From an uncultured Oscillospiraceae bacterium (GTDB taxonomy: Bacteria > Bacillota > Clostridia > Oscillospirales > Oscillospiraceae), in contig CAKSXP010000046.1 in assembly GCA_934515035.1 (NCBI GenBank), positions 1 through 10,046 on the forward strand: a DNA stretch of 10,046 nt, read 5' to 3'. Position numbers and translations under genes: made by a program. Positions 2,597-3,983 of this stretch are shown here, piece after piece. The notes beneath the pieces were generated by a model that was not told the origin of the DNA, did not search any database, and saw only the letters and a program-made list of their open reading frames with translations. Within the stretch, counting starts at the first letter, position 1, and the number at the start of each line of letters is the position of its first letter.

Positions 2597-2602
2597 ATGC
2601 TT

Positions 2603-2799
2603 GCCAAACAAAGCTTAATAGAGGAAATCTGCTCTTCAGGGGGAGAGGTATGCCCATTTATCATTATCCGGTTTGCGTTTGGTAAAAAACGCAGCTCCAC
2701 TCGGATGATGATAAGGGTTTCCTTTTGTCTATGGGCTTTGTTTGGCGACAATCGGAGTTGCGTTTTTCGGTGCGTCAGCTTCGGTTGGCGCACTTTTTT
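2603..2799 (+). ncRNA. Structured RNA of unknown class: leader or small RNA with own promoter and terminator
   Basis: About 197 nt between the predicted transcription start and the end of a U-tract fold into nested helices that I checked base by base. Helix A pairs 2601-2617 with 2732-2748, with a perfect 12-bp core (GCCAAACAAAGC 2603-2614 with 2735-2746). Helix B pairs 2620-2629 with 2716-2725. Hairpin C is 2632-2637/2642-2647 with loop AGGG. Helix D pairs 2658-2670 with 2702-2714 (13 bp, one G-U) and is capped by E, 2674-2680/2687-2693. A further 14-bp helix F pairs 2685-2698 with 2754-2767. It competes with E and crosses A, B and D, so it is either a pseudoknot or an alternative fold. The RNA ends with the UUCG-capped terminator at 2770-2799. 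The lipoprotein SD begins 7 nt later. No T-box, cobalamin, lysine or other riboswitch signature is recognised. The structure is seen directly; function and class are unknown. Confidence 0.72.
2770..2799 (+). terminator. UUCG-capped intrinsic terminator just upstream of the lipoprotein gene
   Basis: A 10-bp stem (2770-2779 with 2784-2793, including two G-U pairs) is closed by a cUUCGg tetraloop and followed by six T at 2794-2799. It ends 7 nt before the GGAGG of the lipoprotein gene. Transcripts from the promoter at 2568-2596 must read through it to express that gene, so it is either the 3' end of a small RNA or an attenuator. Confidence 0.88.
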
Positions 2800-2819: not shown

Positions 2820-3983
2820 ATGAAACTGAAACGAGCCGTCATGCTTCTCCTGACATTGGCGCTGTGCCTGTCTCTTTGCGCCTGCGGCGGGGGCCCCGGA
2901 CCGGCTGACGAGCCGTCGCCGGAACCGACGGAAAACGCCTATGCCGATGTGGAGGCGTGTGCCGGATATGCTATCGAAAAGCTGAAGACCGTCCTGAAAG
3001 ATCCCGGCAGTCTGCTGGTAAATTCCATGAGCGCCGTGGAAACCGACGACAGCTATATCTATTTGATCGACTACTCCGCTGCAAACAGCTTCGGCGGCAT
3101 GAACCGCGACAGCCTGTATCTGGATGTGTACAGTATCGAAGACGGCTTTGCCGTCCGTACCTACGGAACGGGCGCCTTTTACGATGACGACAACCAGCAG
3201 TACACGGCCCAGTTCTATATGAAGTACAACAAGATCTCGGGCGCATATGTGTTCGACCCGGAGACCGTTCGCGTAACGGCTCTGGACGTGACCTACGTGG
3301 ACACCACCATCGACCAGAGGGTCGAGCTTGTGGGAAAGCTGACGGGAGAAAAGGACGCCGGTACCGGCTATGAGGGCGCATGGGATTTTGAGGTGACCGA
3401 CAGTTCCTTGCGGAAGGTCGTGTATTTCACCGATGGCACGGACCTGAGCTGGTATGAGCAATTCACCGGATACCCCTATGAGATCACCATTTCCGCCGTC
3501 AAAGACGAGAACGGAAATTATCAGGAAGCCGAGATCGTGGAGGACACGGTGCGCAATGCGACGGACGAGGAACGGTTCCAGCGGTTTGACTACTATGACA
3601 GAAAGATACTTGCCCAGACGATGCCTTCTTCCGGCTGTGAGGTCATGGACGCGGACGCCATTCACGCCGCGCTGGACGACCGGACATTTTCCATGCGGAA
3701 CAATTACGGCGGCGACGAGGACGGGACTCATACCATTACCTTCCGCGCAGACGGCACGCTGGACGCAAATTACACCTACGAGGGCGAGCAGTACAGCATG
3801 TATGAAGGATGGGAGGTGACGGACGGCAGCGTCGTTCTGACGCACCGCTTCACCGGCTCCACCGGAGAAGAAAAGACATCCGCAAAGACCTTTACGGCAT
3901 ACCGGTATGACGACACAAGGATCCTGCTGATCGGAAACGGTATGGATGCCGACTCTTCCATGGTGCTTACGGTCCGTCCGTAA
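2820..3983 (+). CDS. Predicted lipoprotein, function unknown
   Basis: This 387-residue secreted lipoprotein has the signal MKLKRAVMLLLTLALCLSL and a lipobox L19-C20-A21-C22, so Cys22 should be lipidated and the protein anchored outside the cell membrane. A Gly/Pro/Glu-rich linker (23-37) follows. Residues 40-110 hold a conserved-looking segment with LKDPGSLLVNSM and YLIDYSAANSFGGMNRDSLY. Residues 160-245 form a second beta-rich part (TTIDQRVELVGKLTGEKDAG). Residues 275-387 look like a small beta-barrel or lipocalin-like domain (DRTFSMRNN, ITFRADGTL, GSVVLTH, ILLIGNG). No catalytic motif is recognised. ATG 2820 is chosen because GGAGG at 2807-2811 lies 8 nt upstream and the signal peptide begins there; the frame is open further upstream from 2742, but that part overlaps the terminator. 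Isoleucine ATA is rare here (1 of 14) compared with leuD (7 of 18), which suggests a different origin. It has no downstream partner on its strand. Confidence 0.9.
   Translation: MKLKRAVMLLLTLALCLSLCACGGGPGPADEPSPEPTENAYADVEACAGYAIEKLKTVLKDPGSLLVNSMSAVETDDSYIYLIDYSAANSFGGMNRDSLYLDVYSIEDGFAVRTYGTGAFYDDDNQQYTAQFYMKYNKISGAYVFDPETVRVTALDVTYVDTTIDQRVELVGKLTGEKDAGTGYEGAWDFEVTDSSLRKVVYFTDGTDLSWYEQFTGYPYEITISAVKDENGNYQEAEIVEDTVRNATDEERFQRFDYYDRKILAQTMPSSGCEVMDADAIHAALDDRTFSMRNNYGGDEDGTHTITFRADGTLDANYTYEGEQYSMYEGWEVTDGSVVLTHRFTGSTGEEKTSAKTFTAYRYDDTRILLIGNGMDADSSMVLTVRP

Follow-up and report, generated by a model that had tools for sequence, protein, structure and literature searches.

The DNA analysed here, which we call the window, is a single stretch of 10,046 nucleotides. 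A structured region at 2603-2799 sits between leuB and a gene with a lipoprotein-type signal. The initial annotation had assigned this region an RNA with its own promoter, a start at about 2603 on the first base of a perfect helix core and a UUCG-capped terminator at its end. A promoter/terminator scan of the window returned a sigma-70-type, TG-extended promoter-like site, the extended -10 of which ends 6 nt upstream of helix P1, in agreement with the proposed start, and a terminator stem at 2769-2794 (11 pairs, 4-nt loop). An inverted repeat after leuB, seen in the sequence and absent from the output of that scan, is likely the leuB terminator and would separate the element from the leu operon. 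What the annotation had missed downstream is a ribosome site with an ATG, the latter 20 nt past the U-tract. No Pfam family was found in the 413-aa frame of this gene by a Pfam scan. Upstream, the same frame runs without a stop across the terminator as far as a TTG (2742-2819), probably by chance. The features of the locus are:

2506-2539, no strand assigned: inverted repeat AAAAAAGCAGAG...CTCTGCTTTTTT after leuB, likely its terminator.
2568-2596, + strand: promoter, with -35 TTGAAT at 2568-2573, a 17-nt spacer, extended -10 TATGAT at 2591-2596 and TG before the -10.
2603-2614, + strand: 5' strand of helix P1, with the predicted transcript start at 2603.
2806-2812, + strand: Shine-Dalgarno-like CGGAGGA of the downstream gene.
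2820-3983, + strand: gene assumed to be controlled; its 387-aa product has a signal (MKLKRAVMLLLTLALCLSLCAC...) that by eye is of the lipoprotein type.

The stretch 2595-2805 folds with -89.1 kcal/mol, compared with -54.5 (sd 4.3) for 200 dinucleotide shuffles (z -8.1), none of which folds as stably. Together with the compensatory changes in homologues (see below), this bears out the view that a structured RNA is real. Three of the five helices originally drawn are whole in the minimum-energy fold, namely 2601-2617/2732-2748 (17/17 pairs), 2658-2670/2702-2714 (13/13) and 2674-2680/2687-2693 (7/7). The other two, 2620-2629/2716-2725 (3/10) and 2632-2637/2642-2647 (1/6), are complementary as written and mostly pair otherwise in that fold. 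Two further pairings had escaped notice: a pseudoknot of 14 unbroken pairs in the window (2685-2698/2754-2767) and a putative antiterminator (2754-2763/2772-2782). The terminator stretch has -17.8 kcal/mol in the window. The parts of the RNA are, in five ordered segments and the helices that frame them:

2603-2614/2735-2746, + strand: perfect core of P1, 12 pairs.
2658-2670, + strand: 5' strand of helix P2, paired with 2702-2714.
2670-2680, + strand: segment 1, the 5' arm of a local hairpin, P3 (from the fold; -9.5 kcal/mol in the window).
2681-2698, + strand: segment 2, GGUAAAAAACGCAGCUCC, partner of segment 1 (P3) or of segment 3 (pseudoknot).
2702-2714, + strand: 3' strand of P2 (from the fold and the own-versus-swapped gain).
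2735-2746, + strand: 3' strand of P1 (from the fold and family covariation).
2747-2753, + strand: linker GACAAUC, similar in most relatives in the alignments and often AGCAAUC.
2754-2767, + strand: segment 3, GGAGUUGCGUUUUU, pseudoknot 3' strand and antiterminator 5' arm.
2770-2779, + strand: segment 4, the terminator 5' arm, also within the antiterminator 3' arm (2772-2782).
2784-2799, + strand: segment 5, the terminator 3' arm (2784-2793) and U-tract (2794-2799); the loop UUCG lies at 2780-2783.

Collecting homologues by blastn, as had been suggested, did yield copies, and they carry compensatory changes. Six of 26 genomes behind leuB-related loci contain the element (E < 1e-6), one of them in four copies; these six are labelled Clostridia, Ruminiclostridium, Ruminococcus and Oscillospiraceae MAGs, and isolate names put several in herbivore guts. 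The two closest leuB relatives show no element beside leuB and none genome-wide, and plasmids gave no blastn match. A covariance model was built from 14 sequences; its only pairs are those of P1 and the terminator, and the pseudoknot and P2 are absent from it. Of 147 genomes drawn from the order of G003, 50 matched this model, with 138 matches in all, as did 33 of 200 drawn from the family of G002, an Oscillibacter-labelled MAG genome. Three genomes (G062, G097 and G124) occur in both draws, so the family of G002 belongs to the order of G003; from genome labels and the closest named leuB proteins (Oscillospiraceae, Oscillibacter, Dysosmobacter) we infer that this order is Oscillospirales. With laxer filters, eight of ten chosen genomes were positive, at 6-16 matches each. 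In two overlapping phylum draws of 299 and 119 genomes, in which order members were not counted, the sole match was G003 itself, with none in the 298 other genomes of the larger draw; stricter filters were used there, large draws lose weak matches and a blank result carries little weight, so that the limits of the distribution are soft. Eight more distant genomes did not match the model either, and the family is likely restricted to one order.

The alignments rest on 125 distinct RNAs, window included (112 of the 138 order matches and 13 others). Alignment A2 holds 102 distinct rows of these and A3 the other 23; a held-out set comprises 50 RNAs from genomes not used before. Copies within one genome visibly differ in sequence. 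At least 190 nt is reached by 35 of the 125 RNAs, and many of these have one more hairpin, placed between P1 and P2, that by eye resembles GGGRUAnUAUACCCUUUU (L104, L132, L167, L178 and others), with a poorer counterpart at 2638-2655 of the window; it is possibly a second binding site. Complete promoter-RNA-terminator units also occur in tandem, three of them about 45 nt apart and ahead of one gene in L156:253-811 (G162:C48) and two about 140 nt apart in L107:1501-1960 (G155:C41). By the model, two of six contigs from viral contig searches carry the RNA (four of six search patterns returned nothing). It is also present in three gut records labelled 'Bacteriophage sp.'. Among ten proteins checked from three of these virus-labelled contigs there were phage-family matches, including one weak match to a major head protein (L219), so that these contigs may be phages.

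The RNA had been called unclassified and perhaps a new class, and the Rfam searches are in keeping with this. The window gave no hit over the gathering cut-off (Rfam 15), 16 loci gave two hits, to a tRNA and to a SAM riboswitch, neither of which lies on the element, and 20 further loci gave none. Weak hits obtained in E-value mode (AgrB, ncS025, MicA, STnc560 and others) scored far below their gathering scores and were discarded. The SAM riboswitch lies on the minus strand at L100:1-84, opposite in strand to one copy and close upstream of it. A survey of structured RNAs in the human microbiome lists 3161 intergenic candidates, and 508 candidates at most 25 bp upstream of genes (PMC8040213); nothing like this family appears in those portions of its main text that were covered, and its supplementary tables may list fragments. 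Nor is the family described in the titles and opening lines of abstracts of the literature searched, PMC8040213 and PMC11109978 included. This RNA-leader family is thus apparently undescribed so far.

Within the family, all nine counted P1 pairs are present in 119 of 125 distinct members; in A2, each of the nine has changed on both sides somewhere, and 99.5% of cells are paired. P1 and the terminator are part of the alignment model, and their pair counts are therefore favoured. P1, pseudoknot and terminator taken together in A2 have standard pairs in 97.3% of cells (88.8% in shuffles, 36-62% when slid) and 240 cells changed on both sides against 47 in shuffles. The pseudoknot alone, which joins an apical GGUAAAARYGCAnRCUC to GGAGYnnUGCRUUUUU between P1 and the terminator, is paired in 94.7% of A2 cells (90.1% in shuffles, 45-64% in slid versions). 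Its two helices reach 97.4% and 88.4%, 89 cells changed on both sides (shuffles, 18), and its covariation score was matched by none of 500 shuffles; the number of pairs changed on both sides was matched by 20 of 500. Four A-U pairs hardly vary and most others covary.

A second test compared the pairing of each RNA's own partners with that of partners swapped between RNAs. For the 102 RNAs of A2 the gain was 18.2 +- 0.5 for P2 (which is outside the model), +5.05 +- 0.31 for the pseudoknot, +5.37 +- 0.39 for P3 (segment 1 arm with segment 2) and +2.13 +- 0.32 for linker plus segment 3 with the terminator 5' arm; three pairings with no expected role gave +0.06 to +0.29. The gains kept their sign elsewhere, with negatives near zero. 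In the 23 RNAs of A3 we obtained +3.42 +- 0.82 (P3), +2.69 +- 0.47 (antiterminator) and -0.25 (negative), and in the 50 held-out RNAs +3.06 +- 0.37 (pseudoknot), +4.34 +- 0.42 (P3) and +1.81 +- 0.35 kcal/mol (antiterminator), with negatives of -0.24, -0.22 and +0.20 kcal/mol. In 96 of the 102 RNAs, segment 2 is tied up in a local hairpin, which takes in the A-run and more in 78 of them and the 3' part of the segment in 18; by pairing, P3 is weak or absent in the remaining 6. Judged by a threshold of -5 kcal/mol, which like the other helix thresholds was set in this analysis, P3 fails in 17 of 102 and 30 of 102 shuffled RNAs pass. All four helices pass in 82/102 RNAs and 46/50 held-out ones, against 1/102 and 1/50 after shuffling. 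A U-A-U triple helix, considered on account of the A- and U-runs, was rejected: both U-strands would pair antiparallel to the A-strand, and the P3 arm was neutral towards segment 3 in the swapping test.

The antiterminator hairpin has a mean of -11.6 kcal/mol with each RNA's own partners, -9.3 when these are swapped and -5.7 with segment 3 shuffled. Its column covariation is modest and the least among the switch pairings: 89.2% of cells are paired compared with 86.5% in shuffles, one of the 11 pairs is unpaired in 44 of 100 cells, and the five pairs changed on both sides are at chance level (reached by 135 of 500 shuffles), while the covariation score was matched by 0 of 500. Because segment 2 is shared between P3 and the pseudoknot, and segment 3 between the pseudoknot and the terminator arm, the two states exclude each other. 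Covariation and energies are thus those predicted for a fold with P3 and the antiterminator (1:2 and 3:4) that excludes a fold with the pseudoknot and the terminator (2:3 and 4:5).

The promoter claimed for the window is conserved as well. Sites scoring at least 9/12 precede 107 of 124 copies (14 of 124 shuffled regions); the spacer is 17 in 102 of the 107, and in 92 of them the -10 ends 6 nt before P1. Among held-out copies the -10 is correctly placed in 49 of 50. Of 120 copies, 79 have a ribosome site with an ATG no more than 40 nt behind them, 59 of these at 15-25 nt. The corresponding count is 4 of 155 for other terminators of the same DNA and 145 of 4840 for places picked at random. Such a close gene follows 28 of 49 held-out copies; 41 of 120 copies and 21 of 49 held-out ones are without it. 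By position the element therefore lies in the 5' leader of a gene, the control of which is assumed.

The genes themselves are diverse. The 103 next-ORF proteins scanned gave matches to 64 Pfam families, of which BspA-type LRR (8) and zinc ribbon (7) are the commonest; others are helix-turn-helix (3), EcoRI-type methylase (2) and AMP-binding (2), and no common metabolic theme was seen in the 25 families listed of the 64. A hydrophobic N-terminus is found in 55 of 117 directly downstream proteins and in 36 of 128 other ORFs of the same loci (P 0.002); the figures are 18 and 12 for a lipobox (P 0.17) and 7 and 11 for CxxC pairs (P 0.47). By eye, look-alike small proteins stand directly behind the element in L144, L195, L204, L251, L256, L261 and L275, and two of the 103 proteins match DUF6809. 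L104 and L191, one a phage-labelled record and the other a genome, have similar methylase-like proteins behind the element.

We propose, with a probability of roughly 70%, that the element is a cis-acting transcription attenuator carried as a cassette of promoter, switch and terminator. Its helices, promoter, terminator and gene linkage are supported by the comparative analysis; that the pseudoknot state is the OFF state, and that there is a signal, we infer. RNA polymerase would start at 2603 and make P1 and P2. If P3 holds segment 2, segment 3 would stay free to pair with the terminator 5' arm, the antiterminator would form and the gene would be read. If instead the pseudoknot takes segment 3, the terminator would form and transcription would stop near 2799. 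Some signal, be it a ligand, a protein or another RNA, would bias the choice of fold. Since the pseudoknot duplex is more stable than P3 in the window (-17.0 versus -9.5 kcal/mol), OFF may be the default, and so varied a set of downstream genes speaks for a global signal more than for the product of one pathway. The initial interpretation is supported, and needs extending to a switch with a pseudoknot, a competing hairpin and an antiterminator.

The chief alternative, which we regard as improbable though worth weighing, is a free-standing, stable small RNA that acts in trans, its copies multiplied for dose and the neighbouring gene incidental or read by leakage. An RNA with its own promoter, a start at P1, a closed fold and a terminator is indeed a complete unit. 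A leader would hardly be expected in tandem units like those of L156 and L107, as upstream units would have to pass further terminators; with the third of copies that have no close gene (41 of 120), these units lend a trans-acting role, alone or additional, some likelihood. Against it, 79 of 120 copies stand at most 40 nt from a ribosome site and ATG, roughly 25-fold more often than other terminators do, and a plain small RNA would not be expected to keep segment 3 paired to the terminator arm. That the RNA fronts a gene makes cis control likelier than a free-standing RNA.

We give very little credence to a processive-antitermination RNA. Such RNAs, of which put and EAR are types, would modify RNA polymerase to pass the terminator, and the pairings would serve that fold. 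A structured pseudoknot RNA beside a terminator and ahead of genes would suit this idea, but an antiterminator that uses the terminator arm itself is the simpler mechanism, there is no Rfam family match, and LoaP, one dedicated factor for such antitermination, exceeded the cut-off in just one of 147 order genomes (G089, a non-carrier) whereas the RNA occurs in 50. Equally far-fetched to us is a repeat, mobile or selfish, whose spread takes place at the DNA level, which is incidentally transcribed and which owes its gene linkage to insertion preference. Many copies per genome, patchy presence, tandem copies, accessory-looking downstream genes and the few virus-labelled contigs that carry the RNA would fit; the kept pseudoknot, P3 and antiterminator pairings nevertheless indicate that the folding of the RNA is under selection, sequence differences are visible between the copies within a genome, and no transposase is among the 25 listed of 64 downstream Pfam families.

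Three further candidates were set aside. c-di-GMP is unlikely as the general signal, since GGDEF proteins occur in 21 of the 50 genomes with the RNA and in 59 of the 97 without it, and 29 of the 50 carriers have no GGDEF match at the threshold used (genome completeness is not given). For a leader-peptide attenuator, 18 of the 35 long RNAs and 26 of the 90 short ones have a short ORF with a ribosome site (35% and 27% when shuffled), and no conserved leader peptide was found, the peptides listed for long RNAs not being alike. In the window, a ribosome-like site within the RNA is followed by a short ORF that encodes MPIYHYPVCVW (2650-2685); this ORF is not conserved in relatives. A 6S-like RNA, considered from shape alone, gave no match, and the position ahead of genes speaks against it.

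Evenly balanced in our judgement is the wider proposal that the attenuator represents an undescribed class of cis RNA switch, placed as a cassette at as many as 16 sites in a single genome of gut bacteria of the Oscillospirales type, which would set unrelated accessory and surface genes under one global signal. If so, this would be a frequent regulatory RNA in a large group of gut bacteria that is difficult to work with, and its mechanism could already be read from the sequence. As the genes behind it are unrelated, finding the signal would reveal a global regulatory input, and the alternating pairing scheme offers clear single-strand mutations as tests.

A terminator-antiterminator leader with a pseudoknot is a known kind of element. 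One arm common to terminator and antiterminator is also a feature of T-box leaders and of protein-dependent attenuators of the PyrR type; unlike those systems, the element has no Rfam match and no common gene set. The trp-type amino-acid attenuators use ordered segments, alternating pairing and a leader peptide. Here too the alternating pairing of ordered segments would decide between terminator and antiterminator, but without a conserved leader peptide, and the 2:3 pairing crosses helices P1 and P2 and is thus a pseudoknot. The fluoride and preQ1 riboswitches are transcriptional switches with pseudoknot aptamers, and resemble the element as 5' leaders in which a pseudoknot strand competes with a platform that ends in an intrinsic terminator. 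The present RNA differs from them in having no ligand assigned, no Rfam match and no common downstream pathway, and in that segments 2 and 3 each have two rival partners and the whole is carried behind its own promoter at a nearly fixed spacing.
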